A DNA stretch of 25,343 bases from a virus. The notes under the pieces are model-generated. The model was not told the origin of the DNA. It worked only from the letters and a program-made list of their open reading frames with translations, and made no database searches. The translations under genes were made by a program, and so were the position numbers. This document shows, piece by piece, positions 4,404 through 24,811 of the stretch (positions within the stretch are counted from its first letter, which is position 1; the number at the start of each line of letters is the position of its first letter). The stretch is from IMG/VR virus record IMGVR_UViG_3300042889_000608, positions 1-25,343 of that record. One strand, 5' to 3'.

Positions 4404-5330
4404 TTAGGCTACTTCTACTACAGTAGTAAATTTACTCATGTGATCAAGATACCTTTCAGTTTGCTTGGCATTGTATTTAGGTCTATCAAAGTTCTCCCAA
4501 TTGTATACGGTCGCAATGAAGTCGTCGAATCTTGCTTTAGTAACAACTATAGGACTGAATGATCCGTCTTCTACCGCAGTAGTCTTTATGTTCATCTCGA
4601 CTTTACCGTTTTTAACGTGACCTACAACTTCGAATGCATACACTCTTACATTATCGTATCGACCTCTACCTGTTTGTAGATCAAAATACTGATTAGGTTT
4701 TACTTCTAATGTATAAGCGCCTTGTTGATCATAATCAATATTGTAGTGTCTTTCGCACTCTGTACGAGAAGATATAGTATGCGTGAATCCAGCTTGCTTG
4801 TAAGAAGCTAAACCTTCTTCTAATATCTGAGCCTCTGTCTTACGTATAGCAAATTCAGTGTGAGATATTGGTTGCTCGAATGTAGCGTAACGTTTTTGTG
4901 CGTACTGTTGATACTCTGCTTTCCACGTAGGCATCATGAAATTGATTTGATTCAATAAAACTGCAACCATACCTAAAGTTTTTAAGTACGCAATAGTTTT
5001 AGTATCGTCGTACTCTACCTCTTTAGAATAGAAACTTAATTTTGCTTTAGCTTCTTCACCGTATCTAGCGTAGTGATATACAGTAATTGCATTGTGATTC
5101 CACATATCTTTTACGTCTTCTTCAGATGAAAAGATTTGTAATGTTTCTCCACCACTTTGAAGTTTGACTGTGTATGTTTCGCCTGTAAATTTAGCGAACC
5201 ACTCTGAGATACTTACTTCTAATGTAGCAACTTCTTTACTAAAAACATTGTCGTAGTAATACTTAGATGCTTCTTTTTGAGATTCCAATTGTGACTGTAA
5301 CGCGGTCAACGTAGTTTGTAGTGTGTTCAT
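4404..5330 (-). CDS. Large hypothetical protein (308 aa)
   Basis: 308 residues and the first gene after the non-coding block at 5331-5573, so probably the head of a transcription unit. The first 70 residues are helical (MNTLQTTLTALQSQLESQKE). The middle is mixed, and about residues 190-290 look beta-rich (AYTLEVKPNQYFDLQTGRGR and following). No catalytic motif or membrane span is evident. The ATG carries the AATAAAAGTT leader, with a small hairpin about 35 bases further upstream. Family unknown. Confidence 0.85.
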   Translation of the reverse strand: MNTLQTTLTALQSQLESQKEASKYYYDNVFSKEVATLEVSISEWFAKFTGETYTVKLQSGGETLQIFSSEEDVKDMWNHNAITVYHYARYGEEAKAKLSFYSKEVEYDDTKTIAYLKTLGMVAVLLNQINFMMPTWKAEYQQYAQKRYATFEQPISHTEFAIRKTEAQILEEGLASYKQAGFTHTISSRTECERHYNIDYDQQGAYTLEVKPNQYFDLQTGRGRYDNVRVYAFEVVGHVKNGKVEMNIKTTAVEDGSFSPIVVTKARFDDFIATVYNWENFDRPKYNAKQTERYLDHMSKFTTVVEVA

Positions 5331-5385: not shown

Positions 5386-5398
5386 AAGGTAAAAGTAC
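5386..5398 (-). promoter_or_regulatory. Shared promoter-like box, copy A
   Basis: On the minus strand this reads GTACTTTTACCTT, matching GTAATTTTACCTT at 13500-13512 in 12 of 13 positions. In both blocks it lies exactly 59 bases from the TTCTTCATAG box and just upstream of a gene. Its TA-x2-TTT core partly resembles the Bacteroidota -7 box (TA-x2-TTTG), but the last base differs. It is likely a promoter element; no start site is known. Confidence 0.45.
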
Positions 5399-5444
5399 TG
5401 CTATCTATCGAAACAAAAAAATTATTTATCAAGTATCTTAAAAG

Positions 5445-5484
5445 TTCTTCATAGAGAACCAACGCGTTATGTATATTCTTTTTT
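5445..5484 (-). promoter_or_regulatory. Shared upstream box, copy A
   Basis: The plus-strand text TTCTTCATAGA-x-AACCAA-x3-GTTATG, followed by x-ATAT and a T-run, is shared with 13559-13598 without gaps. The conserved box and its fixed distance to the 5386 box suggest a protein-binding region upstream of a phage promoter. The identity of the binding factor is unknown. Confidence 0.5.
5454..5471 (+). repeat. 18-bp element, copy 1
   Basis: GAGAACCAACGCGTTATG, related to the exact pair at 13568 and 13652 (14 of 18 identical). The variable core here is CGC instead of TCA. With copy 2 it forms an inverted pair. Confidence 0.55.
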
Positions 5485-5490
5485 AACATG

Positions 5491-5508
5491 CGCAACTGAT
5501 TGGTTTCC
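5491..5508 (-). repeat. 18-bp element, copy 2 (inverted)
   Basis: The minus strand reads GGAAACCAATCAGTTGCG. It shares the 12-base core AACCAATCAGTT with the copies at 13568 and 13652. It is inverted relative to copy 1, with 19 bases between the two. Confidence 0.55.
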
Positions 5509-5573
5509 AATACGCATAAAATGGCCTATTTTGGGCTCTTTGGGCACGCTTGGTACCAAATGACTATAATATA

Positions 5574-8063: not shown

Positions 8064-9179
8064 TTAATTTTTTTTAATGTTAAATAATTCTGGTCTTCTT
8101 TGTTTTAGTTTATACATCTCATCGTCTTGCCATACTGGTTTCTGATATTTGGGTTTGATTATCTTCCATACCATGTGATCGTATTCTCTGCCATCCCACA
8201 TTGCAAATAGTATGGACTTATACTGTTTATCTACATACTTGTCCAAATGAAGAGCGAAGTCTTTTTTGCTAGGTTCTGGGTCCACATCGTTGTACTTACC
8301 ATATCTGAAATAATCGTGTATCTTACCGCAGTGTTCTCCTACTGAAAATTTGGCGTAGCTTAAGTTCATAACCCAATTTCTGACCCATTTGTCAAATTCG
8401 TCAGGCACTTTTTCTAGGTATTTCTCTATATCTTCGCCGTTCTTTAATATCTCCCATATATCTACGTTAGAAAGTCCAGTCAATATTCTATGTAGTCTCA
8501 CGTACTCCTCTCCTTTGATCTTCATCCTGGTTCCATCGTTAAATCTTACAACGAATCCTTCTTGATTGTTTTTAATCATGGACTTAAGTTGCTTATAATC
8601 TTTTATACCATCATATTGATATACTACATCGAAGTTGTCTTTATAGTAAGGAACTTGTACACTTGCTTCTATACCATCTGGTGAACAATCAATACAAGCA
8701 AGCAATACTAATTTTTCTAAACTTCCGTAGTTACACACAATCCTATTTTCTGGGTATATTATCTCGAATAGATATGTATAACCTGGGGATAATAATTCTG
8801 AGTTGTATTTGTTTAGCATCTCTCTACCCTTTATTGCCTGATCAGAAACAAAAGATCCTTTGGAAGCTAAGTGCCATTCTCCATTGTAGTAGAATACAAT
8901 ACCCAAAGATCCGTCCATCTTCTCGTACACATGAAACTCTTCGTTAGGTATCTCTTTCATTTCCTCCATATTGAAGAACTTAGGAAATGATTTGGCTATC
9001 ACATTACCTTCGTTGTCCAATATTGTGCCTCTCATGTTCAAAGTAATATCGTCCCATCTCCCTTCGTATTGACACGTACGCGAGTAGTTATAGATAGACA
9101 GCGGTAAAGTAGGGTGATCCTGTTTTACCACATATCCTCGTTCTATGTAGTTGTTTAATATGTCTAAATCGTATTTCAT
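8064..9179 (-). CDS. rnlA: RNA ligase, T4 Rnl1 type
   Basis: 371 residues, close to T4 Rnl1 (374). It has the nucleotidyltransferase motifs in order: RGTILD (R50), FPKFFN, motif I YEKMDGS with the AMP-accepting lysine K87, KGSF, FEIIYPENRIV (E139), EGFVVRF (E207) and motif V MKIKGEEYV (K220, K222). The enzyme uses ATP to join 5'-phosphate and 3'-hydroxyl RNA ends, classically to repair tRNA cut by host anticodon nucleases. The C-terminal ~130 residues would be the Rnl1-specific helical domain. The start overlaps the kinase stop by one base (TAATG), so kinase and ligase are coupled. Confidence 0.93.
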   Translation of the reverse strand: MKYDLDILNNYIERGYVVKQDHPTLPLSIYNYSRTCQYEGRWDDITLNMRGTILDNEGNVIAKSFPKFFNMEEMKEIPNEEFHVYEKMDGSLGIVFYYNGEWHLASKGSFVSDQAIKGREMLNKYNSELLSPGYTYLFEIIYPENRIVCNYGSLEKLVLLACIDCSPDGIEASVQVPYYKDNFDVVYQYDGIKDYKQLKSMIKNNQEGFVVRFNDGTRMKIKGEEYVRLHRILTGLSNVDIWEILKNGEDIEKYLEKVPDEFDKWVRNWVMNLSYAKFSVGEHCGKIHDYFRYGKYNDVDPEPSKKDFALHLDKYVDKQYKSILFAMWDGREYDHMVWKIIKPKYQKPVWQDDEMYKLKQRRPELFNIKKN

Positions 9180-9594: not shown

Positions 9595-10251
9595 TTATTT
9601 TGAATAATTTTCAGTTTTTTCGTGATGGTCAAATTTGAATAATGATTTGATTGGTTGTTTATTCATTAAGCTTAGCACTTCTGACATATCTATTGGATAT
9701 AAATTGTTACCATCCACTCCCGCATCCATCATTTTGCCAGGTCCTATGCGTTGATTTGCAGGGAAGTGGACGTGACCGTGTAAATGGATTGTTCCTCTGG
9801 CCATGTTATTCCAACTAGCAATAGGATAGTGCATACACATAAACAACTGATCGCCCATTAGTGGAGTACCAACGTTGTACTTTACGTGAAGGTACAAGTA
9901 GTCGTGCACAGAACTGAATAAAGATTGTACGTTCTCTTTATTCTTTTGAATGTGGTCATCATGATTGCCTAATACTAAATGAATAGTCTTGCACACAATT
10001 CTATCTCTAAATTCCTTGATGCTATCGAATCCACCGAATGACCAATCTCCTAAGTGAATTAGTATGTCGTCTTGCTTAACCACTTCGTTTATATTATCTA
10101 CTAAAGTAGCGTTCATTCTTTCTAAACTCTTGAACTCCCTTATTGTAGTAGGATCAGTCCACTTAGTGGTAGCTGAACATATATTAGCGTGATTATAATG
10201 CGTGTCACTCGTAAAAAATAACCGCTGTCCTTTTTCTAATGTTATCTTCAT
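9595..10251 (-). CDS. Calcineurin-like phosphoesterase (COG4186-like)
   Basis: 218 residues with SDTHYNH (D16, H18), LGDWSF (D69), GNHDDH (N96, H97), MHYP (H141) and LHGHVH (H160, H162). This is a full set of metallophosphoesterase ligands, in the arrangement of the predicted phosphoesterase group COG4186. Its place directly before the kinase and ligase suggests that it processes RNA ends (3'-phosphate or 2',3'-cyclic phosphate), as the central domain of bacterial Pnkp does. That role is inferred from context, not shown. It is not closely similar to the other phosphoesterase at 1185-1973. Confidence 0.88.
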   Translation of the reverse strand: MKITLEKGQRLFFTSDTHYNHANICSATTKWTDPTTIREFKSLERMNATLVDNINEVVKQDDILIHLGDWSFGGFDSIKEFRDRIVCKTIHLVLGNHDDHIQKNKENVQSLFSSVHDYLYLHVKYNVGTPLMGDQLFMCMHYPIASWNNMARGTIHLHGHVHFPANQRIGPGKMMDAGVDGNNLYPIDMSEVLSLMNKQPIKSLFKFDHHEKTENYSK

Positions 10252-13159: not shown

Positions 13160-13480
13160 TTAGTTTAATGAAGGCATTACTGAATATTCTATGTCTGTGT
13201 TGTGCCACTTTTTCATATACGATTGCCATGACATTTCACCTGTATCTATTTTTTGTTGATCTAATTCCATGTTACGAGGTACTCCACCAATAAAATTAGT
13301 ACCAAACAATTCTACATTCGAAGATGGCCACTCAAAATTAACGTGACAGTCAGGATACACTTCGTAGAATACGTTGTGATTGGCACGAATGATTTCGATA
13401 TCTTCGTTCTCAATATTAATAACACTGTCGATTTCGACCTCTTTAGTAAGAGCATTTTTAACGTGGATTCGTAATTGCAT
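13160..13480 (-). CDS. Hypothetical protein (106 aa)
   Basis: I choose the ATG at 13480 (MQLRIHVKNALTKEVEIDSV). The longer frame to 13516 needs a TTG and would swallow the AATAAAAGTT leader and the promoter-like box. The 106-residue product starts with beta strands, contains NHVNFEWPSS-like beta text (CHVNFEWPSSNVELFGTNF) and ends with a Trp-rich helix (MSWQSYMKKWHNTDIEY). It is the first gene after the non-coding block. No family recognised. Confidence 0.8.
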   Translation of the reverse strand: MQLRIHVKNALTKEVEIDSVINIENEDIEIIRANHNVFYEVYPDCHVNFEWPSSNVELFGTNFIGGVPRNMELDQQKIDTGEMSWQSYMKKWHNTDIEYSVMPSLN

Positions 13481-13499
13481 AACTTTTATTGTTTGATAT

Positions 13500-13512
13500 A
13501 AGGTAAAATTAC
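13500..13512 (-). promoter_or_regulatory. Shared promoter-like box, copy B
   Basis: The minus strand reads GTAATTTTACCTT, ending 20 bases upstream of the ATG at 13480. It matches copy A (5386-5398) in 12 of 13 bases and sits at the same distance from the upstream box. It is a candidate core promoter; the match to the host TA-x2-TTTG box is partial. Confidence 0.45.
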
Positions 13513-13558
13513 GCAATCCTGGATATCTAGAGCTGTTTTATTGAACTATTTTCGAAAC

Positions 13559-13598
13559 TTCTTCATAGATAACCAATCAGTTATGCATATGTTTTTTA
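13559..13598 (-). promoter_or_regulatory. Shared upstream box, copy B
   Basis: The plus strand reads TTCTTCATAGA, then TAACCAATCAGTTATG, then CATAT and a T-run, aligning without gaps to 5445-5484. The 44 bases between this box and the 13500 box are not conserved with block A, although their length is. That pattern suggests two protein-contact sites at a fixed distance. Confidence 0.5.
13568..13585 (+). repeat. 18-bp element, copy 3
   Basis: GATAACCAATCAGTTATG, identical base for base to 13652-13669, in the same orientation and 84 bases apart. It lies within the shared upstream box. Confidence 0.7.
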
Positions 13599-13615
13599 GT
13601 AATATGAGCTATTTT

Positions 13616-13669
13616 CATAACGCGTTGATTACCAATGGGTTGCAACCCTATGATAACCAATCAGTTATG
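13616..13669. repeat. 54-bp imperfect palindrome around GGGTTGCAACCC
   Basis: The centre is the perfect palindrome GGGTTGCAACCC (13637-13648). The outer arms are CATAACGCGTTGATTACC (13616-13633, an inverted 18-bp element) and GATAACCAATCAGTTATG (13652-13669, a direct copy). Everything is symmetric about 13642.5, and 20 of 27 base pairs match by my count. It could be a dimeric or tetrameric operator, an origin-like element or a hairpin in the mRNA 3' end of 13706-14386. It lacks a following T-run, so a simple terminator is less likely. Confidence 0.65.
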
Positions 13670-13705
13670 AATGGTGCTAAATTATATGTGTAAAGCGTTG
13701 GGAAA

Positions 13706-14386
13706 TTACTTGTAGTCTATGATATCGTCTACATTTAGGTTGCCTTTATCTTCGTAACCTATTCTTTCTAAGTGTTCTAAATAGAATGGATCTAAATCGT
13801 AAAACTTTGTATTGTTCTCGTCTAACACTTCTTCGTCGTGTATGTATTTTGATTCTATGTTTCTAGTAATTCTATCGCTGAATGGATCCACTGCAAATAA
13901 GAAGCTGCAGTTATAACACAACCATCTCAAGTTCTCTAATCTCCAATCAGATTTATTACCGTTTATAAAGTTGATAAGCAAAGGAACTTTCATATCTAAT
14001 ATGCGTTTCTCTTTGAATCCACACTCAGCACAACAATAACCTAATCTACCGTCTTTCATCAATAGATCTTTAAGCTTAGCCACTCTCTGAGGATTTGCTA
14101 CTTGCTTTTCTACTAGCATCTCTTCTAAATCCTTCTTAAAGTTACTACCTTGAAAATTCTTTGGTATACCTTTAGCAGATTGATTCATGTGTAAATCAAA
14201 TAAGGTTTTACCTGTATCTCTGTCTATATACTTGCTTGCATATTTCTTGTACGTAATGTACGTGATCTTCATCCATCTCGCAGCTTCGTGGTTGCTACGC
14301 GTATTGTTGATTGCTTCCCATATCTGATCTTCTGTGATCTGAAGACCTTGGTATATAAATTGAGGTTTGTCTTTATTCTCTTCCAT
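13706..14386 (-). CDS. HTH/HNH-fold protein with degenerate active site
   Basis: 226 residues. The N-terminus (about 18-55, EDQIWEAINNTRSNHEAARW, then a helix ending KKYASKYID) looks like a helix-turn-helix. A zinc HNH fold follows: C119-x2-C122, then LLINFINGNKSDWRLENLRW, then C157-x2-C160. In active HNH proteins the INF segment reads HHI or DHI. Here Asn139 and Phe140 occupy those positions, and Ser replaces the common final His. The zinc cysteines and the ENL asparagine are kept. It therefore probably binds DNA without cutting it. Stop/start overlap (TAATG) with the upstream gene suggests coupling. Confidence 0.78.
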   Translation of the reverse strand: MEENKDKPQFIYQGLQITEDQIWEAINNTRSNHEAARWMKITYITYKKYASKYIDRDTGKTLFDLHMNQSAKGIPKNFQGSNFKKDLEEMLVEKQVANPQRVAKLKDLLMKDGRLGYCCAECGFKEKRILDMKVPLLINFINGNKSDWRLENLRWLCYNCSFLFAVDPFSDRITRNIESKYIHDEEVLDENNTKFYDLDPFYLEHLERIGYEDKGNLNVDDIIDYK

Positions 14387-15513: not shown

Positions 15514-16689
15514 TTAGAATACGTTCTTGATGAAGGTTCCCATCATTTTGTCTGTATGATCTATCATTTGTAATACGTCGATCTTAAGTCCGTTGTATTC
15601 GTACGTACCTACTGCATCCACTGATTCTCTAATGATAACCTGTATATTTGGAACTATATTTAGATCTACGTTCTCTTTTGCGTCAAAGTAGATAAGTATA
15701 TCGTTCTGCTTTGGCTCTTCTATATTACGCACCCTAGCTTCAAGGATTAGATCTGTCTTAGGCTGTTCATGTTTTATATAGTCAGCAATTAAAGTCTGAT
15801 CTACGTATATGTTATTGAACCAGGGCTCTAATGATAGTAATAGGTTAGCATCGCAATTCTCCACAACTATTCCTATATCGTACCTCGGTTTTAATATCGG
15901 CATTTGATACTCGTCGTTCTCAATCCAGCTACCCCACTTTCTGATATAGTTTCTTGCAGCTTTAGCAGATGCATTCTTAAAGTAGTCGTCGTCCTTGCCA
16001 ATCTCTTCTGTCCATCTGTGTCCTCTACAAGTTAAGTGGTATACGAATGCGTCTCTTGACTGGATTAGTTCGTATCCATGTAGTATCCACCTTTGGAATA
16101 TATCCGAATCTTCGTAAGGGAACGGCGCGAATAGTTTATCATGACCTCCCATTGCAACGAAGTCTTCTTTGTATATGATCCACGGTGCAAACATACCATT
16201 AGTTGTTAAGTCTTTGTACTCGTGTTGAGCTTCTAAAACGTATGCCTCAAATGCATCTAAGTTTAAGTTATCAAAGTCAGTACCAAAATCTCTAATCATC
16301 TTTTCTTTACCTGCTGGGTGTAGAGGAGGTTCCACTCTTGTTGCGCATACAACGGTTTCTTTTTGTAGATGCTTTAACAAGTTCTCTAGATAATATGGAC
16401 CTAAGATCATATCTGCGTGCATGATACCTACTACTTCTGTCTGCGCTAGCTCGATTCCTTTATCGTATAGTATTGTATGACCAACTCTTTTATCAGATCT
16501 ATATACGGCAGTAATATTATCATCGCTAATTCCAGCCAACCATTCAGTTGTACCGTCAGTAGATCCGTCATCTAACATAACGATCTTACAATTTGGTGCA
16601 TGAGTTTTTATACTGGCGTATGCATTCTTTAAGTGTCTTAAGTTATTACTCGAAGGTATAACTAGCGTAACTTTTTCTTGTGTTAACAT
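15514..16689 (-). CDS. GT2 glycosyltransferase, tandem copy B
   Basis: 391 residues. The N-terminal GT-A fold begins VTLVIPSSNN. DDGSTDGT (40-47) binds the nucleotide and HADM (91-94) is the metal-binding DxD-type site. EPPLHPAGKEK, FAPWIIYKEDF, LIQSRDAFVYHLTCRGHRW and YIRKWGSW follow. The C-terminal ~130 residues form an extra domain not seen in short GT2 enzymes. It is a clear paralogue of the next upstream gene (16683-17831) and overlaps it by seven bases. Donor and acceptor sugars cannot be read from sequence. Confidence 0.88.
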   Translation of the reverse strand: MLTQEKVTLVIPSSNNLRHLKNAYASIKTHAPNCKIVMLDDGSTDGTTEWLAGISDDNITAVYRSDKRVGHTILYDKGIELAQTEVVGIMHADMILGPYYLENLLKHLQKETVVCATRVEPPLHPAGKEKMIRDFGTDFDNLNLDAFEAYVLEAQHEYKDLTTNGMFAPWIIYKEDFVAMGGHDKLFAPFPYEDSDIFQRWILHGYELIQSRDAFVYHLTCRGHRWTEEIGKDDDYFKNASAKAARNYIRKWGSWIENDEYQMPILKPRYDIGIVVENCDANLLLSLEPWFNNIYVDQTLIADYIKHEQPKTDLILEARVRNIEEPKQNDILIYFDAKENVDLNIVPNIQVIIRESVDAVGTYEYNGLKIDVLQMIDHTDKMMGTFIKNVF

Positions 16690-17831
16690 AGTTTTAAATT
16701 TGGTCTTTTCTCTTCTACTTTATTTACTTTTAATTTGAATATACCTAACTCGTAATCTCCAGACTCTGGTACATCGTAAGTTAATATATCTGGTAATGTT
16801 TGCACTAATTGCATTATTGAATTGGAATCTAATATTAAATCGTTATAATCTACGGAAACTATAATATCGTTTGTAAGTTCATCTACATATTTTGATTTGA
16901 TATCAAAAGAACTTAATTGACTCATAGCATCTATGTACATTTTAGATACAGCTTCTTCTCCTAATTTTAAATTATTGAAGTAAGGTTCCAATTGATTTAT
17001 CGTAGTTGCCATCTTATTACAATTCTTAACCTCTAAACCAATGTCGTACTTAACATTGGGTATTGGTTCTAATGTATCTGTTTGTTTTAAGAATCCTCCC
17101 CACTTACGAATGTACTCGTTCATCGATATAGAGTTATTTACTTGCCATGATTCGTCCTTCTTTTGAAAGTCTTCCATTTTTTCTACGTGTGCAAACTGTC
17201 CGCCTCTACAAGTCAAGTGATATACCATTGCAGACCACGATTGAATCAAATCGTAACCATGTAATTTGAATCTTCTAAATAGATCTGCGTCTTCGAATAC
17301 AGATAAGAATATAGGATCGTGTCCTAAGTGTTGGTCTTTTCTAATTAACCATGGAGCGAAGATGCTTTTAGTTATCTTATCACTTTTGTTTTCCTCAACG
17401 AATTCATTAAACTCTTCGATCTTCAAATCTTCTGGCCACATACCAAAATCCTGTACTATCTTCTCTATTCCTGCTGGATGTAGTGGTGGTTCTATACGAG
17501 TGGCGCACACGATGTTGTCCTTTGTTTTAATATCCATCATGTGTTTGTCTGCATGAGGACCAAGAATCATATCAGCGTGAAATGCTATTACGTATTCTCT
17601 ATCGGCCCATTGAAACATATTATCGTAAGCGAAGCCTATTCCTTTTGGAGTCTCTTCGTGGTTTTGAATGAACTTAATACCATTCTCTCTCAACCATTCT
17701 ACAGTTCCGTCTGTGTCTTGATCTACGTACACAATGATTTGATTCGGATAGTAAGAATTATCTTGAATAGATTTGATACACGGTTTTAAGTATCGTAAAT
17801 TGTTCTTGCTTGGTATGCAGAATGTTATCAT
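16683..17831 (-). CDS. GT2 glycosyltransferase, tandem copy A
   Basis: 382 residues starting MITFCIPSKNNLRYLKPCIK. DTDGTVEW, then HADM (85-88) as DxD-type site, EPPLHPAGIEK, LIRKDQHLGHDPIFLS, HGYDLIQSWSAMVYHLTCRG and YIRKWGGF line up one by one with the neighbouring gene. The same C-terminal extra domain is present. The start overlaps the GT17 gene as ATGA, indicating coupled translation. Confidence 0.88.
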   Translation of the reverse strand: MITFCIPSKNNLRYLKPCIKSIQDNSYYPNQIIVYVDQDTDGTVEWLRENGIKFIQNHEETPKGIGFAYDNMFQWADREYVIAFHADMILGPHADKHMMDIKTKDNIVCATRIEPPLHPAGIEKIVQDFGMWPEDLKIEEFNEFVEENKSDKITKSIFAPWLIRKDQHLGHDPIFLSVFEDADLFRRFKLHGYDLIQSWSAMVYHLTCRGGQFAHVEKMEDFQKKDESWQVNNSISMNEYIRKWGGFLKQTDTLEPIPNVKYDIGLEVKNCNKMATTINQLEPYFNNLKLGEEAVSKMYIDAMSQLSSFDIKSKYVDELTNDIIVSVDYNDLILDSNSIMQLVQTLPDILTYDVPESGDYELGIFKLKVNKVEEKRPNLKLC

Positions 17832-18691
17832 CTAAAAAATTTTTTATACTTTTGTTTGTTATCTAGTAAATACTTTGGTAGTTGCGATTCATCTATAACA
17901 TAATAAAACTCTGATCTGCCTAATACGTCTTTACCTGAATCTAAGTTGCTCTTAATCTTGTCTTTTACTTCATCGTTATTAAACTCTTGATGTCCATAAG
18001 CCTCTATCTTTAATCTCATTTTATCTTCTCCTCCCATAAAACTAAAGTGCCAACCTGCATTATTTATATAAGTGTACTTTGTTTTTGATGGCGTTCTTAA
18101 ATGATTCAAACAAGATCCTTCAATGTTTTCGTATTTAGTTAACGTAGTACCTGCCCAAGGTTCGTTAGACTTACTGTTTAGATAACCCACGTAAACTAAT
18201 TGTTTTAACTTATAGACCGTATCGTTTTCTATATTAGAGTAATCCAATTCAGGATTCCATATCTCGTCTAAATCTCCTACGAAGCACAAATCTCCGTATT
18301 CAGCGCCTGCATTTTCTATAGCCAATCTTATCATTTCTTTTTGATAGAATTCTTTTAACCAATGTAGTTCTCCCTTTGGTACATTAGATGTAGTCAGTGC
18401 TTGGATACAAACCTGCTTTTCAAATTCATTGGTCTTATCGTTTACTATTCTCTGTTGTAAATCCTCAAACGATTTTGGTGGTGTAAACGTAACATGGTGG
18501 TGGATCTTATGTAAGTACTTTTCAAATCTCTGTTTGTTGTCGCTGAAATGCAACTGCTTCTGTTTACCTGAAAAAGTCTCTACGCATTCTACCAATACAA
18601 ACTTATCTACGTAAGGATCAAGCATTTCTAATCTTAACTCTAATAGATCTAATTCGTTAAAGAATGTAAATACATCAAATACTCTAGCCAT
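17828..18691 (-). CDS. GT17-family glycosyltransferase
   Basis: 287 residues from the ATG at 18691; the longer frame to 18721 starts with TTG inside the upstream gene. MARVFDVFTFFNELDLLELR, LEMLDPYVDKFVLVE and GDLDEIWNPE (D140, D142, E143 as the metal site) are hallmarks of GT17 (beta-1,4-mannosyl-glycoprotein beta-1,4-N-acetylglucosaminyltransferase family, with bacterial and viral members). HFSFMGGEDKMRLKIEAYGH near the end also fits. The acceptor is unknown; in this cassette it is more likely a phage or bacterial glycan than an N-glycan. Confidence 0.85.
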   Translation of the reverse strand: MARVFDVFTFFNELDLLELRLEMLDPYVDKFVLVECVETFSGKQKQLHFSDNKQRFEKYLHKIHHHVTFTPPKSFEDLQQRIVNDKTNEFEKQVCIQALTTSNVPKGELHWLKEFYQKEMIRLAIENAGAEYGDLCFVGDLDEIWNPELDYSNIENDTVYKLKQLVYVGYLNSKSNEPWAGTTLTKYENIEGSCLNHLRTPSKTKYTYINNAGWHFSFMGGEDKMRLKIEAYGHQEFNNDEVKDKIKSNLDSGKDVLGRSEFYYVIDESQLPKYLLDNKQKYKKFFR

Positions 18692-19574
18692 ATATCTTGC
18701 TTTCTTTTTTATATAATTCAAATTCCCTCATAACATCTGTATAAGATTGTAATTGGCCTTGTCTATCCATATATGTAAACTTACGACTTATATTGTATCC
18801 GCATGCCCAATAACCATCGCTTACATTATGTCTTGCCCAATACTTGGGTGCTATAATTAAATGAGCATCACTACAAAATGCTGGGAAATAGGCAAAGCTT
18901 GAATTGGATATGATTAACCATTTTGCATTCTTAACTATTGAATAATCTTTAGCCAAATCAAAGTGATACACATTATCAGCAAGCTCTGGTAATAATCTCT
19001 TTGCCATATCAGGATTCTCAGTGATAACTAAAAATTGCATGTTAGAGTTTAAACTAAGCATGTGATAGATTGCTTTAACCCAATAATCTCTTGATAAGAA
19101 TAGTGTAGGATCTGCTTCGTAGTCTCTGATATTCAATACGCATATATCATCATGACTATAGTCTATGCAATCAAATTTAGGTTTTACTTTCAACCAATCT
19201 TTAACTTCTTCTCTATAATCCCAAAAATACTCTTCGCCTTGCATAATACCCATAATTTTGGTATTATTTGCAACATTCAATAGATCTTGGTCTATTAATC
19301 TTATATCGCAACCGTGAGTACGATCGTGCTCTGAATGATCTAGCTTTATTCTTGTTTCTTTTTCTGTGTAAGTTTCATTAGTCGGTAATACTGCAGATCC
19401 TAAATCTATATCCATGAAGTATACGCCTTTATCATTGTATCTCTTATCTCCAAAGTTTTCCAATCCAGTATAACCAAATGCGTAATCATTTCTTTTGGCT
19501 ATAGCTCTAGTCGTTACATAAACTGCAAGTTGATTGCCGAAGCCTTGACCGTACATGAATTCCGTGTATATCAT
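18684..19574 (-). CDS. Divergent GT11-like fucosyltransferase
   Basis: 296 residues. The start MIYTEFMYGQGFGNQLAVYV resembles the GDP-binding G-x-GNQ motif of GT11. NAKWLIISNSSFAYFPAFCS corresponds to the NSSFSWWGA motif, and APKYW follows. The expected H-x-R-x-G-D motif is replaced by LNIRDYE, keeping the Arg but not the His or Gly. It could be an alpha-1,2-fucosyltransferase with altered specificity or a related GT family. A clear GT11 lies at 23975-24811 in the same cassette. ATGA overlap with the upstream SDR gene. Confidence 0.75.
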   Translation of the reverse strand: MIYTEFMYGQGFGNQLAVYVTTRAIAKRNDYAFGYTGLENFGDKRYNDKGVYFMDIDLGSAVLPTNETYTEKETRIKLDHSEHDRTHGCDIRLIDQDLLNVANNTKIMGIMQGEEYFWDYREEVKDWLKVKPKFDCIDYSHDDICVLNIRDYEADPTLFLSRDYWVKAIYHMLSLNSNMQFLVITENPDMAKRLLPELADNVYHFDLAKDYSIVKNAKWLIISNSSFAYFPAFCSDAHLIIAPKYWARHNVSDGYWACGYNISRKFTYMDRQGQLQSYTDVMREFELYKKESKIYG

Positions 19575-20290
19575 TTATTATAATATTCTTTTTTTAAATC
19601 TTCGAGTTGATTTTCTATGTTCTTTGTTTTTATTTCCCCTTTTAAACACTTGTTGCACTTAAATTCCTCTTTTGCTAATATACTAATTTCTTTTGAGAAT
19701 ATTCGCTTTATTTTTTTCAGTAAGTTATACTTAGAGAGGCACTCTCCTTCAAGTATTGTCTCTATGTTGTATGTCTCCCAATTTAACATTAAATCATAAC
19801 AGTTTTTTGCCCATTCTAAAGTGGTATTTCCGTTCCACATTGCTTGAGAATAACCAAATACATGATCTTCGGAACTTAATAACCACTCCATTAGACTAAA
19901 TTTAGAATTTAGCTCCGGTCCTATTATTGAGGATTTGAGTATCTTAGTTTTATTACTTTTTAGCTTTATAAAACTAGAGGCCCTTTTTTTAGAAATTCCG
20001 TAATCATCATCGTCCATTTCGCAATCAGTTCCTGGATGTATCACTCTGCATTTAACATTCTCTTCTAACCATATGGGTAAATCATAATTTATTTCGAATA
20101 TTTTTGTTTTTTGAGGTATCGCGCCTATACAATTTATAATGTAAGCGCCATTATAATCTAATACAAAGTCTTTAAATTCTTGACTAGGAAACTTAAGACT
20201 AGTCGTTGTGATGTTTACAGATTTTTTTTCTAAAAAAAACTGGACCATATGACCTAACATTCCTTTATGACCTAGGATTAAAGTATCCAT
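19571..20290 (-). CDS. RmlD-like SDR sugar reductase
   Basis: 239 residues. GHKGMLGHM (G7, G10, G13) is the nucleotide-binding glycine motif, CIGAIPQ follows, and Y97-GIS-K101 is the SDR catalytic pair. RmlD and WbjC/CapF-type enzymes reduce 4-keto-deoxysugar nucleotides; this protein is shorter than RmlD (about 290) and lacks the cupin domain of WbjC. It follows a PseB/CapE-like dehydratase gene with a 26-bp overlap, which fits a two-step 6-deoxysugar route. Composition is very AT-rich. The final residues include CNKCLKGEI, a C-x2-C of unknown role. Confidence 0.78.
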   Translation of the reverse strand: MDTLILGHKGMLGHMVQFFLEKKSVNITTTSLKFPSQEFKDFVLDYNGAYIINCIGAIPQKTKIFEINYDLPIWLEENVKCRVIHPGTDCEMDDDDYGISKKRASSFIKLKSNKTKILKSSIIGPELNSKFSLMEWLLSSEDHVFGYSQAMWNGNTTLEWAKNCYDLMLNWETYNIETILEGECLSKYNLLKKIKRIFSKEISILAKEEFKCNKCLKGEIKTKNIENQLEDLKKEYYNK

Positions 20291-21209
20291 ATAATTTTAA
20301 AATTTTATTTAGTTCTTCTTTATTTACTAATGTTGTATTTGAAGTTAATTCCTCCCATTCAAAATTAAGATTCTCTAGAATATCTTTATAGTGCATATAG
20401 TAGTTGTCATCACTTTCATTATAGAAAGTACGAGACCTCTCTTCTTTTGATATCATCATTTCATGTAATTTTTCAGATATTCTCGGCTTTGATATTGTAT
20501 ACTCCAATCCAAAATTCTCTTTGTATATTTCAAATAGATCTTTTATTTTAAAACTTTTTAAATTCGGTATTAAATTATAACCAGTAGTACAAAGACTAGA
20601 TTCTATTAAATCTATAGCTCTGTTGACGTCTATCATAAATCTTGTCATTTCCTCAGAATATAATTCTAGTTTGTAATTTTTATGTATAGCATCCCATATT
20701 AGCGGGATAATACTTCCTGTAGAATTAAAGACATTTCCATATATAACGTTAGATAGTTTAGTATTAGAATTATCTGAATTAACTATGAATGATTCTCCCG
20801 CTACAAATTTCATAGATCCATATAAAGTGGTAGCGGCTCGACTTTTGTCAGACGATATAAAACACGCAGATTCAAAATTATGTTCCTCAGCAACTCTCCT
20901 AGAATTAATCGCTCCATTTACTATGATCTTTACGGCCTCTTCTATGTTTTGATCTACAGCTTCTATTTGTTTCATACTAGCTGCAAATATACCGATATCA
21001 TGATTGCTGCTAGCTCTCTTCAGTAAATCAAAATTTCTGATATCTCCTATTACACAATTTATTTTTGGAAATTGTTTTTTAATGTAGTAATGTTTAGCTT
21101 CATCTCTAGAATAAATGGTTATATCATTATGCTCATGATAACGTTCTATTATATTTTTTCCTAAATAGCCTGCTCCCCCGGTTATGAATATTCTTTTATT
21201 TTTTATCAT
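20265..21209 (-). CDS. UDP-sugar 4,6-dehydratase-like SDR (CapE/PseB)
   Basis: 314 residues. TGGAGYLG (10-17) binds NAD(P), IGDIRN and IFAASMKQIEAVDQNIEEAV follow, then SSDKSRAATTLYGSMK with Y130 and K134 as the catalytic pair. This order is that of Polysacc_synt_2 (PF02719) enzymes such as PseB and CapE/WbjB, which make UDP-4-keto-6-deoxy sugars from UDP-GlcNAc. GC over 20281-20460 is 25% by my count, against 43% in 16021-16200, suggesting separate acquisition. Paired with the SDR just downstream. Substrate not proven. Confidence 0.85.
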   Translation of the reverse strand: MIKNKRIFITGGAGYLGKNIIERYHEHNDITIYSRDEAKHYYIKKQFPKINCVIGDIRNFDLLKRASSNHDIGIFAASMKQIEAVDQNIEEAVKIIVNGAINSRRVAEEHNFESACFISSDKSRAATTLYGSMKFVAGESFIVNSDNSNTKLSNVIYGNVFNSTGSIIPLIWDAIHKNYKLELYSEEMTRFMIDVNRAIDLIESSLCTTGYNLIPNLKSFKIKDLFEIYKENFGLEYTISKPRISEKLHEMMISKEERSRTFYNESDDNYYMHYKDILENLNFEWEELTSNTTLVNKEELNKILKLYGYFNPRS

Positions 21210-21213
21210 CTTA

Positions 21214-21771
21214 TTAAATATAAATGATTTGTTTATTCCTATTCATTTTTTTTACCATAGTCAAACCCGGGTTAATTGGAAGAGTTAGGACTTCAAATTC
21301 GTCTATTAGGTTTTGTTTTATGTATAAAGCGGTCTTATAGCAATCATTACAAGCTAAAGGATGAAACATAGAGGGATCGTAAGGGTATGTATCATGAAAA
21401 AATACGAATCCGTCTTCAATTACTCTGTCTTTAACATTCAAAAAGTCTTTCAAAGATTGCTCGTGAGAGTGATCTGCATCTATGAATACGGCATCAAACA
21501 TATCATCTGGTCCAAGGCTGGCGAAGTAATCGTCTGTCATTACTCTATGAAATTCCATATTAGGTTGTAAAGGGAAAGTTGGTTCGTTAAACGCGTCTAC
21601 ACCAATTGCCTTTTCGCAGTATTTTGAAGCTGGTATAAACGTTGCACCGTCTCTCACTCCTAATTCTAGGTACCTTTCTGGCTTAATCCACTTAAATATA
21701 TTACAAATAAATTCTGGATGATCAAAAGTTTCTTGAGGCGGAGGAACGCTCCTTAAGTAAATAGGTTTCAT
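21214..21771 (-). CDS. SAM-dependent methyltransferase (Methyltransf_24 type)
   Basis: 185 residues. YLELGVRDGAT (34-44) is the SAM-binding motif I, GVDAFNEP carries the acidic D59 that contacts ribose, FIDADHSHEQ (97-105) is motif IV-like, and VFFHDTYPYDP follows. This fits the Methyltransf_24 class I enzymes that often sit in polysaccharide loci and O-methylate sugars or small acceptors. Given its place between glycosyltransferases, sugar methylation is the likely role. It could instead act on another acceptor. Confidence 0.83.
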   Translation of the reverse strand: MKPIYLRSVPPPQETFDHPEFICNIFKWIKPERYLELGVRDGATFIPASKYCEKAIGVDAFNEPTFPLQPNMEFHRVMTDDYFASLGPDDMFDAVFIDADHSHEQSLKDFLNVKDRVIEDGFVFFHDTYPYDPSMFHPLACNDCYKTALYIKQNLIDEFEVLTLPINPGLTMVKKMNRNKQIIYI

Positions 21772-21779
21772 TGTTTGTT

Positions 21780-22580
21780 TTATTTATTTTTAAAAAAATC
21801 TAGAGCGTGAGTGTCTTCCACATCGTTATGATTATGTGTATAAAAAGCGTCTTCTGGAGTTTTCCAGGAATCACCTTCAGCTCTTGTTTTGGAGCACTTA
21901 ATCTTCCATTCTGGCAATGTTTTCGTGTAGTAGTGATTCAATTGAGCCTTATCAAAACTTAAGTATCTTGATGAAGAACTTCTACCGTTTCCTACATAAA
22001 AGTCAACGTCTATCCAATCTTCTCCAGCTATAAAGTGTATTGAATGACGATCAAAATCTTTATGTAACTTACAAATAGGTAAGAATTGATAGTGACTTTC
22101 TGTATGCGCTTCATCCCATCTTTTCGTAAATCTTTCTAACACACTAGTATTGTTCTCATCAAAAGTAGTATGTCCACCATCACCAAACATTGCAAAATTA
22201 ATGACGACTTGTCTCTGAGGAACATTATCAAATTTTGATATAAACTCTTTGACATTGTTAGTTTCTTTTAAATCTAGAAAACAATCAACATCAAAAAATG
22301 CGGCCCACTCATATTGTTCATAGTATTGTTTTCCAAAATGTGTATAGCACATAGCGTGTCTATTCCATTCCCAAGGATCATCTCTCATTGTTAAGGATAA
22401 TGACTCAACATCCCATTCCATAAAATGAACTTTGTCGTTTTGTATCGCGTTATTAAACCTCCAGTTATTTTGGTATATAAAAATATCATCAAAACCTAAT
22501 TTTAAATTATAATCTATCCACTCTTGCAAGTATAAATCTTCTTCTTTTGCCATGGTTACCAAGGCTATCTTTTTTTTCAT
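21780..22580 (-). CDS. Glycosyltransferase, Glyco_tranf_2_4/GT92-like
   Basis: 266 residues. It starts with the typical KEEDLYLQEWIDYNLKLGF (12-30; usual form K-E-x-x-x-E-W-x-x-H-x-x-x-G), then FIYQNN and AFFDVDCFLDL with D97-V-D99 as the DxD site. LNHYYTKTLPEWKIKCSKTR near the end matches the family's usual Y-T-K-S...K region. This GT-A family contains many bacterial polysaccharide enzymes. A T4-late-like TATAAATA lies 47 bases upstream of its ATG, in one of the few gaps of this cassette. Confidence 0.85.
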   Translation of the reverse strand: MKKKIALVTMAKEEDLYLQEWIDYNLKLGFDDIFIYQNNWRFNNAIQNDKVHFMEWDVESLSLTMRDDPWEWNRHAMCYTHFGKQYYEQYEWAAFFDVDCFLDLKETNNVKEFISKFDNVPQRQVVINFAMFGDGGHTTFDENNTSVLERFTKRWDEAHTESHYQFLPICKLHKDFDRHSIHFIAGEDWIDVDFYVGNGRSSSSRYLSFDKAQLNHYYTKTLPEWKIKCSKTRAEGDSWKTPEDAFYTHNHNDVEDTHALDFFKNK

Positions 22581-22627
22581 ATTTAGTTTTTATCTTTTAA
22601 AAAGTGTATATGTCAGTATCTAATTTG

Positions 22628-22635
22628 TATTTATA
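22628..22635 (-). promoter_or_regulatory. TATAAATA, T4-late-promoter-like box
   Basis: The minus strand reads TATAAATA, the exact consensus of T4 late promoters, overlapping the stop of 22631-23287 and 47 bases upstream of the ATG at 22580. The flanking DNA is AT-rich, so chance is possible. I found no other copy in a fitting gap position except a weaker case near 4390. Confidence 0.25.
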
Positions 22636-23287
22636 AACTTTTTTGTGTTAGCGAATAATAAAAATTAGTTTTGCCATGAAACCCAAATGGTATGATGCCT
22701 TCGTTTTCTGGTACATGACACTCATGACTAAATCTTGCCGCTATATCCAGTGGTGCATACTTACAACCATGTTGTTCGTATGTCTTTCTATGATATACAC
22801 AGTAGAATCCATCTTCGTTATAAAAACCATGATAAGGTTTCCACTCTAAATCTAACTCTTTTGCTAGACTTAATAACTTTTTACTTCTTAGTGTAAAGCC
22901 TCCATTACCCATTCTTTGAATAACTCCATCTTCATCTCTAAAAGAAAAATCGTCTTGAGGTAGTGGAAATATTGCGCCGATGTAATCGTATTGTAAGAAC
23001 TCGTCTGTCCACATATCTGGATTGACTATGTATCCATCGGGGTGTACTAGTAGTGCAAACTCGGTATCTATATACTCGTGAAGTCTATATACACAGAAGT
23101 GACTGAACTGCTCATAATTTATGGGTTCACATTTAATTATCTCTACATCGTCTGCTTGAATATCTTGTGACGTGATTAACTTTTTTGCAGCGAACTCTAT
23201 TTCTCTACAAGAGTATCTTATTGCTTTTAATGATTGTTCTGCAGTTATGGTATCTACAGCAACTATAGTTACGTTATCTAGTTTCAT
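22631..23287 (-). CDS. DUF5672-family putative glycosyltransferase
   Basis: 218 residues. VTIVAVDTITAEQSLKAIRY starts the fold. FALLVHPDGYIVNPDMWTDE, YDYIGAIFPLP, MGNGGFTLRSKKLL, NEDGFYCVYHR and PFGFHGKTNF are the hallmarks of DUF5672, a family commonly found in glycosyltransferase loci and predicted to have a GT-A fold. Reaction unknown. The start overlaps the previous GT2 gene by 14 bases. Confidence 0.82.
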   Translation of the reverse strand: MKLDNVTIVAVDTITAEQSLKAIRYSCREIEFAAKKLITSQDIQADDVEIIKCEPINYEQFSHFCVYRLHEYIDTEFALLVHPDGYIVNPDMWTDEFLQYDYIGAIFPLPQDDFSFRDEDGVIQRMGNGGFTLRSKKLLSLAKELDLEWKPYHGFYNEDGFYCVYHRKTYEQHGCKYAPLDIAARFSHECHVPENEGIIPFGFHGKTNFYYSLTQKSL

Positions 23288-23990
23288 ATCTTCTTATTAC
23301 TCTTTGAATTTCTTCTTGTTTTTGTTTCTCAGTCATCATGTTAGTTGTTCTAACCTCTGCGTTTCTATTTACTGCGCATACCATGTCTATTACGACAGGA
23401 TCTCCGTATAACATGTGCAATCTCTTATAGTATTCTACATCCACTAACCAATTCAAAGTTTCATCAAATTTTGGTTTCGTATATTCGTTTCTAATTGTTA
23501 GTACAGACGGACAACTTATAGTATTAACTCCAACGTATATGCGATCATGATAGTGCGGTGTCATTCTGTCGTACATAGTTACGCAATCATCAGTATGTAC
23601 GCATGCGGTGATAAACCAGTCTTTGTCTTGATTCTCAGCTATGCTATCGTATATTATTTGAAGTGAATCTACATCGTATAAGAAATCGTCTTGAAATAAC
23701 ATTTTGATAAATAGTCCGCTTGAATGTTCAATGGCATTATTCATATTAGGCGCTATCTTGCCTCTACCGTTAGAGTTTCTAAAGTACTTAATATTCATCA
23801 TTGATCTCCATGAATTACATAAGTTCTCTATGTCGTCATCTTCGCTATGATCTGATATCACGACTTCGTAATCTGTAAAGCTCTGCTGCGCTATTATGTT
23901 AAATGAGTGTTCTAAGTATTCCACTCCTTTGCCTTTAATTCCCCATGTGGGTATTGCAATGCTAAAGAAAGGTATTACGCTTTTATCCAT
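23274..23990 (-). CDS. GT2-family glycosyltransferase
   Basis: 238 residues. SIAIPTWGIKGKGVEYLEHS, DYEVVISDHSEDDDIENLC and MLFQDDFLYD (QDD as the DxD-type site) match a short GT2 (GT-A) enzyme. It ends in a basic Glu/Lys/Arg-rich helix (TEKQKQEEIQRVIRRYETR) that could contact a membrane or partner. It lacks the long C-terminal domain of the tandem GT2 pair at 15514-17831. Overlaps of 16 and 14 bases with the neighbours show tight operon packing. Confidence 0.85.
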   Translation of the reverse strand: MDKSVIPFFSIAIPTWGIKGKGVEYLEHSFNIIAQQSFTDYEVVISDHSEDDDIENLCNSWRSMMNIKYFRNSNGRGKIAPNMNNAIEHSSGLFIKMLFQDDFLYDVDSLQIIYDSIAENQDKDWFITACVHTDDCVTMYDRMTPHYHDRIYVGVNTISCPSVLTIRNEYTKPKFDETLNWLVDVEYYKRLHMLYGDPVVIDMVCAVNRNAEVRTTNMMTEKQKQEEIQRVIRRYETR

Positions 23991-24811
23991 GATTGTGGGT
24001 ATAAATCTTTTGTATCATGAACTCCATTGTATGCAGGTCCGAACCACTTCTTTGGAGCTACGACTCTTTTATCGGGGTTTTGGTTTAACCATGCACCCCA
24101 CCAACTAAAACTACTATTCGCTATTACGTTGTGATGGCACATACTCATCATGCACATGTCTACATCAGGTTCGTTTCCTTCCATATAAACAATGTTCTCT
24201 TGATCTCCGAATAACTCTTTAGCATATTCTATATCGTCAGAGAATACTAGGAAGCAATAGTTACCATCCATAAAATAGGTCATAGCATTGAAGTAATAGT
24301 CTGCGTCCATTACTGGATGGAATTGTTGAAGTCCTGCATAATCTCCCTTTCTTAAATGCACAGACACAAATTCTAATTGCATAGGAAATGTTGGAAAAGC
24401 AGACTCGGCTTTCTTTTTTGTTTCTGAATTAAACTCAAAGAATTCTCTTATTGTTTCGCTACAGTGTTCAAAGTACTTCTCTGTTTGAAAGTAACCCATC
24501 AAATTGGTTTGGTCTGGTACTCTAAATAGATCTTGACAGAAGTGGAAGTAAGGTTCTTGAGCTACGTGTAATGTTTGTATTTCGGATTGCGGTTTCAATG
24601 TTAACTTAACGTTATCGAAGTATTTTGGTAAATCAAAATAAACCTCTCTTCTAACTCCGTCTTTGAAATGCTCTACGCTTGGTACATCTACATTCTCTTT
24701 TGGAAATGCTACATCGTGTCCAGTTTTATTAGCTACACCTACAGTGGAAGCAAACTGAAACATTTGGTTGCCCAGCCTTCCAAAATGTCCTATCTTATTA
24801 TAACTTATCAT
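23975..24811 (-). CDS. GT11 alpha-1,2-fucosyltransferase
   Basis: 278 residues with all classical motifs: GHFGRLGNQMFQFA (8-21), VHLRKGDYAG with H152, R154, G156 and D157, VFSDDIEYAKELF, and IANSSFSWWGAWLNQN, then PKKWF. GT11 enzymes transfer L-fucose from GDP-fucose in alpha-1,2 linkage. The acceptor is unknown. The host or another part of the phage must supply GDP-fucose; the sugar-nucleotide epimerase next to it might be involved. ATGA overlap with that gene. Confidence 0.92.
   Translation of the reverse strand: MISYNKIGHFGRLGNQMFQFASTVGVANKTGHDVAFPKENVDVPSVEHFKDGVRREVYFDLPKYFDNVKLTLKPQSEIQTLHVAQEPYFHFCQDLFRVPDQTNLMGYFQTEKYFEHCSETIREFFEFNSETKKKAESAFPTFPMQLEFVSVHLRKGDYAGLQQFHPVMDADYYFNAMTYFMDGNYCFLVFSDDIEYAKELFGDQENIVYMEGNEPDVDMCMMSMCHHNVIANSSFSWWGAWLNQNPDKRVVAPKKWFGPAYNGVHDTKDLYPQSWIKA

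Follow-up and report, generated by a model that had tools for sequence, protein, structure and literature searches.

Among the closest described systems are the class I activator-dependent promoters, such as those with CRP at -61.5 or -71.5. In E. coli, CRP activates strongly at -71.5, -72.5 and -62.5, with no activation at -66.5 or -76.5 (accessible part of PMC6301791). The sigma-ABfr promoters of Flavobacterium carry TTTG/TAnnTTTG, and those of F. johnsoniae have a box that starts at -12 and a nearly invariant G at -5 (accessible part of PMC6847099). The IHF sites of lambda attP, such as H', follow the consensus WATCAANNNNTTR; IHF introduces its bends at a distance of 9 bp from each other, and an A-tract flanks strong sites on the other side (accessible part of PMC8421141). 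Gene control in Bacteroidetes phages is little mapped, as far as the literature that we searched shows, and that literature, which left most subscription journals outside its reach, held no description of the element reported here.

The element lies in a 25-kb virus record of 25,343 nucleotides, the whole of which was analysed and is called the window below. A 54-bp palindrome (Table 1) lies between two minus-strand genes, the HNH-like one at 13706-14386 and a small one whose start is at 13480. A preliminary description of this DNA had placed two 18-bp elements in opposite orientation around a shared axis at 13642.5, with a third, identical direct copy at 13568, and all of these are present. 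GATAACCAATCAGTTATG is found at 13652-13669 and again, unchanged, at 13568-13585, CATAACGCGTTGATTACC lies inverted at 13616-13633, and GGGTTGCAACCC sits between CATAACGCGTTGATTACC and GATAACCAATCAGTTATG. A repeat search returned palindrome arms of 29 nt, at 13614-13642 and 13643-13671, that are 76% complementary. With up to three mismatches allowed, the 18-mer was found twice in the window against 0.01 expected, and none of 100 shuffles got to two. The palindrome is thus real and above chance.

Comparison of the copies gave the repeat unit as a 23-bp dyad, AACnnnTTG-N5-CAAnnnGTT, of which the window holds two head to tail, 25 bp apart. The 54-bp stretch is palindromic because these two symmetrical dyads stand in tandem, and GGGTTGCAACCC is their junction, GTT-GC-AAC with neighbouring bases. 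The switch between TCA and CGC with kept flanks, which the preliminary description had pointed out correctly, falls in the loosely constrained nnn spacer of the dyad. Beyond the dyad itself, that description had missed a second group of sites at 5457-5516 and the one fixed distance at which a promoter-like box follows each group. The copy at 13568 is part of a promoter-proximal element, marked by an extra AGAAnTTT block, that precedes the Bacteroidetes-type box serving the gene that starts at 13480.

Table 1 Features of the window around the palindrome and the second group of sites
Feature	Position	Strand	Remarks
54-bp palindrome	13616..13669	.	two tandem 23-bp dyads plus flanks
Dyad 1	13644..13666	-	AAC TGA TTG GTTAT CAt AGG GTT; 11/12 defined bases
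Dyad 2	13619..13641	-	AAC CCA TTG GTAAT CAA CGC GTT; 12/12; 25 bp downstream of dyad 1
Weak half-site	13692..13700	-	CAACGCTTT; adjoins the HNH stop codon; read from the sequence, aligned copies in relatives
Promoter-proximal element	13554..13582	-	AACTGATTGGTTATCTATGAAGAAGTTTC; a half-dyad with an AGAAnTTT block; dyad 2 lies 59 bp upstream; contains the third 18-bp copy
-7 type box	13503..13511	-	TAATTTTAC; starts 71 bp after the start of the proximal element
Second composite element	5440..5468	-	AACGCGTTGGTTCTCTATGAAGAACTTTT
-7 type box	5389..5397	-	TACTTTTAC; likewise 71 bp after the second element
Upstream dyad of second group	5494..5516	+	AACTGATTGGTTTCCAATACGCA; 10/12
Downstream gene	13160..13480	-	106 aa from its ATG
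Gene behind second composite promoter	4404..5330	-	308 aa
HNH endonuclease-like gene	13706..14386	-	upstream neighbour of the gap

The longest relative obtained with the HNH query is a 174-kb contig (L021, record G001) with portal and terminase genes and a baseplate-like match slightly below its cut-off. Among named phages, Flavobacterium phage immuto, annotated as T4-like, has the portal protein closest to that of this contig (55.7%). Given this portal and the promoter boxes, the host of these phages is probably a member of the Bacteroidetes. Apart from the named phages, the contigs used here are metagenomic, mostly fragments, and include several near copies. The window itself also encodes an RNA ligase like T4 RnlA, a phosphoesterase and several glycosyltransferase or nucleotide-sugar genes (8064-9179, 9595-10251 and 15514-24811).

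The dyad recurs in these relatives. Its 12-base core, AACTGATTGGTT, occurs with at most one mismatch at several places and in both orientations in all 11 related records. In G001, dyads with an N5 spacer match at least 11 of the 12 defined bases at seven places, whereas each spacer of 2-4 or 6-9 bp gave between zero and two, and ten Markov sequences averaged 0.6. Five of the seven places, including all four perfect dyads, fall in three promoter regions; the two sites at 140.9 kb are overlapped by a short plus-strand ORF. The preliminary description had also considered a replication element, and tandem dyads at a regular pitch would suit an origin or an iteron array for replication or partition. 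The distribution in G001, three separate loci each at a fixed distance before a promoter box, speaks against this reading, which we regard as extremely improbable.

Columns that the search did not impose are also constrained. With L001 and L155-L158 left out, 33 non-redundant dyads, of which a few are probably chance matches, gave 66 half-sites, where W (88%), A (52%) and Y (92%) precede CAA and R (83%) follows GTT. The pattern AACNNNTTGGNNNYCAA had 91 matches in 23 records, which were picked for carrying the element, against none for the reversed pattern. The 179-kb relative G012 speaks against the dyad as the unit, since with at most one mismatch it was found there five times against three for its reversal, although AACNNNTTGGNNNYCAA matched 13 times against none. 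Immuto, for all the likeness of its portal, differs from G001 in that a search for the dyad found none, and the same search found none in a second cultured relative, Chryseobacterium phage MA9V-2. A close form of the composite was also sought in 84,980 bacterial and archaeal genomes; its three matches, which we read as chance, lack a correctly spaced -7 box in the context shown. In Microcystis phage Mel-JY01, a divergent intergenic gap contains one perfect dyad (L199, about 400-422; PP395634, 98199-98221), 102 bp before a TAGTTTTG box, and two further places match with one mismatch; we did not count this phage as a case. The stated host of this phage may merit a check, since its portal resembles those of the phages studied here and its box looks Bacteroidetes-like.

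Conservation was assessed at loci that were fetched by protein and not by the element, by searching for AACnnnTTG at 61, 71 or 77 bp ahead of a loosely defined box. It lies 71 bp before the box in all 14 HNH-neighbourhood loci, which comprise 10 distinct sequences, and in all 15 loci of the 308-aa gene, one of which (L193) has it 345 bp before the match. A third family, encoding a 96-aa protein, has it at 71 bp (eight loci) or 61 bp (one) in all nine loci with enough upstream sequence, the tenth locus fetched being cut by the contig end. L175 and L178, two of the loci fetched by protein, carry the composite although they are outside the list from the pattern scan; in L178, where protein identity is 38% and the box is changed, the dyads and the 61-bp spacing are nevertheless kept. 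Loss of the symmetry in related phages was what the preliminary description had named as telling against its reading. Instead, two sites stand in register with changed letters in each of the 14 HNH-neighbourhood relatives, among which 10 sequences are distinct, some copies being degenerate to 10 of the 12 defined bases by a count on aligned sequences.

The HNH-like protein, which the preliminary description had put forward as binder, fared differently. The composite was found within 300 bases behind the gene in none of 19 distant HNH homologues, and it precedes two families that were fetched without the HNH query; one of the 19 contigs, that of L028, has a composite at another place (L154). 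Judged by the 300 bases behind these 19 genes, the element does not travel with the HNH gene; we rejected the HNH protein as partner, and an HNH homing-endonuclease target linked to its gene is not supported. Elsewhere among distant relatives, the same composite promoter precedes genes with what we read as a GDPGVGKTT/GDPGSGKTT ATP-binding motif (L169, 1659; L110, 4883).

The spacing to the box is strict. From the first base of the proximal site to the TAnnTTTAC box, it is 71 bp in all seven sequences that we laid out, which come from three unrelated promoter regions. A pattern scan of viral contigs returned 69 stretches with the element, near copies counted. Of 51 distinct elements, 33 had the box at 71 bp, five at 61 bp and one at 77 bp, and 12 had no box. 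A looser pattern gave 62 distinct elements (37 at 71 bp, seven at 61 bp, one at 77 bp and 17 without a box) and 23 non-redundant promoters, which are not independent events because the composite blocks are partly homologous. When boxes of the form TAnnTTTA[CT] were allowed anywhere, 23 of 40 non-redundant elements had theirs at 71 bp (17) or 61 bp (six), three had it elsewhere (one each at 77, 135 and 147 bp) and 14 had none; in 300 shuffles, at most two elements shared any one distance. The non-redundant sets kept one member per group above 85% identity, and the count of 40 needed 160 bases. The two favoured distances are one helical turn apart, and the site thus keeps a fixed helical phase upstream, as at class I promoters.

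Further sites lie upstream. Ahead of the 23 promoters, 58 were found in 4,444 bp against 5.8 in shuffles, the forward copies mainly near -26, -51 and -100. The lineage of the window departs from the common positions -26 and -51, with dyads 59 and 84 bp ahead of its proximal element. Some dyads are located between promoter and gene and, since 14 of the 40 non-redundant elements also have no box, the element is not a part of the promoter alone. The boxes share the TAnnTTT core of the sigma-ABfr promoters of Flavobacterium, and a run of seven T lies upstream in 15 of the 23 promoters by our own count, though it is absent from the one in front of the 13480 gene. The phage box differs in reading TAnnTTTAC in place of TAnnTTTG, with A where the -5 G stands (accessible part of PMC6847099). 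A scan for sigma-70 promoters gave one match against 1.8 in shuffles.

The palindrome is most likely a genetic switch and not a replication element, because it appears to be a binding site held at a fixed distance before certain promoters in a little-known group of Bacteroidetes-type phages. Its operator-like character, and hence the earlier prediction of DNA sites for a multimeric regulator, gains support from the dyad symmetry, the recurrence in both orientations, the fixed helical spacing to the box and the conservation before three unrelated genes. We consider it probable, from sequence comparison, that the dyads are sites for a dimeric activator of one promoter class and that an upstream activating region has its distal part in the palindrome. 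Should the box begin at -12, its position in F. johnsoniae, the dyad centres would come near -72 and -62, and the transcript behind the 13503..13511 box would start at about 13499 on the minus strand (numbering after the accessible part of PMC6847099). As at class I promoters with CRP, a dyad would then be centred near -72 or -62 with a shift of one helical turn; different here are the Bacteroidetes-type -7 box and the further dyads upstream.

The mechanism that we propose is as follows. A dimeric DNA-binding protein would bind the 23-bp dyads, often consecutive at about 25 bp, with the promoter-proximal site centred near -72 (-62 in some relatives) from the predicted start of a promoter with a TAnnTTTAC -7 box. 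The bound protein would contact RNA polymerase, or would bend the DNA so that upstream DNA does, from a fixed helix face in a class I-like manner. The upstream dyads would load additional protein, presumably cooperatively, and the activator would turn on a small set of phage operons together. A dimeric protein acting on RNA polymerase from the DNA is suggested by the shift of one helical turn, the sites in both orientations and the symmetry; we prefer activation to repression because of the far-upstream position of the site and the deviation of the box from the host consensus. For the dyads between promoter and gene, repression is as likely as activation.

The symmetry could alternatively reside in RNA. 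A hairpin in a read-through transcript from the HNH gene, acting as terminator, attenuator or end protector, would make the DNA symmetry a by-product, and the coding-strand RNA does fold at -15.1 to -34.7 kcal/mol in all 11 distinct sequences, of which 10 come from relatives and one is that of the window; every one of them folds better than its other strand, and z is -5.6 in the window. The outer three pairs co-vary between two lineages (11 of 11 paired), which may represent one event; the flank types CAT and TGC both adjoin sites elsewhere. However, spacer positions pair in only 52 of 121 cells, compared with 112 of 132 for motif positions (79 and 118 with G-U), and sites in other arrangements recur before promoters. 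Searches for Rfam RNAs, which gave no match at the gathering score, and for tRNAs found none. The second lineage, lineage B, has a TTTTTT run after the stem, and the window's lineage does not. A GC-rich stem followed by a T run, as in an intrinsic terminator, was sought in the window at 13400-13800, and none was found. The hairpin is a very unlikely explanation overall, and we take the RNA stem to be a by-product. A terminator role is possible in the T6 lineage only: in the lineage B gaps of L012, L014, L016, L019, L022 and L023, TTTTTT follows the paired dyads, and the array may double as a terminator there.

If an activator does bind the dyads, a host protein of the IHF/HU type (DNABII) is one candidate. 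The dyad would then be a two-sided IHF site that a DNABII homodimer binds, bending the upstream DNA. In the BHFa/CTnDOT case, BHFa is a host factor. The TCA/CGC difference falls in the N4 spacer of the IHF consensus, and dyad 2 matches that consensus exactly on the minus strand (13618-13630, AATCAACGCGTTA); in dyad 1 and at the proximal site, C replaces T. The columns not imposed by the search, W, A and Y before CAA and R after GTT, also agree with it, although the third consensus base of the IHF-like side is C in 56% and T in 36%. Within TTG-N5-CAA, 9 bp separate the TT step from the AA step, as with the IHF bends, and the AGAAnTTT block takes the place of the A-tract side of strong IHF sites. 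Compared with H' and the other IHF sites of lambda attP, the element has the same CAANNNGTTR side, TTG-N5-CAA core and A/T-rich block on one side, with up to 18 of 20 bases like H'; it differs in being two-sided, in favouring WACCAA over WATCAA, in its arrays and fixed promoter spacing, and in having no known recombination site.

The best match of the lambda H' 20-mer in the window is the palindrome locus (16/20), a score within the reach of chance (one of 20 Markov runs, five of 40 shuffled queries). H' also matches best at the locus in three lineage B stretches, G002 (17), L012 (17) and L067 (18), which are not independent since they belong to one lineage. In the 174-kb relative, by contrast, the best H' match is elsewhere. 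H1 and H2 do not favour the locus. Searches for DNABII genes in the phage records did not detect PF00216 in 30 records at E 0.001 or in five at E up to 10, nor PF18291 in 10 records, most of these records being fragments. HU is said to bind without sequence specificity (accessible part of PMC5683647), and Porphyromonas HU PG0121 is described as non-discriminatory (accessible part of PMC3969353). A DNABII homodimer as the binder, a sub-case of the activator reading, is a possibility that we hold only tentatively. That uncultured Bacteroidetes-type T4-like phages have a promoter class on which a sequence-specific DNABII homodimer serves as class I activator, on a phased array of symmetrical bending sites, seems unlikely.

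The binder may otherwise be encoded by the phage, a possible candidate being the basic 96-aa protein behind the third promoter, either as an autorepressor or as an activator. A dyad abuts the ATG of its gene (12/12 in G001 and G006, 11/12 in G008), and this protein family keeps the composite promoter at identities as low as about 30%. Against this, family and fold searches matched the protein to no DNA-binding protein, its model has a pLDDT of 75.2 only (a first model was poor, at 55.8), and the gene was found in 10 loci compared with 69 stretches with the element, although the scan can miss distant relatives. Comparison of the model with the PDB gave no match at E 0.001 or better, and the one good viral match is an uncharacterised phage protein. 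We judge a phage regulator of this kind distinctly unlikely.

Whichever protein binds, a composite promoter whose 23-bp site is defined and whose spacing is strict offers a marker for co-regulated operons in uncultured phages. The dyad is also a ready bait for the regulator, which may be a host protein on which the phage depends. A second promoter-like class may exist in G001 and could represent another temporal class. On its minus strand, [GTC]CACT stands exactly 40 bases before TA[TC]ATTT[AG] at eight places (524, 5779, 18170, 28277, 87267, 124315, 127793 and 161133, that at 87267 inside a long ORF), against five matches at all other spacings from 20 to 59.
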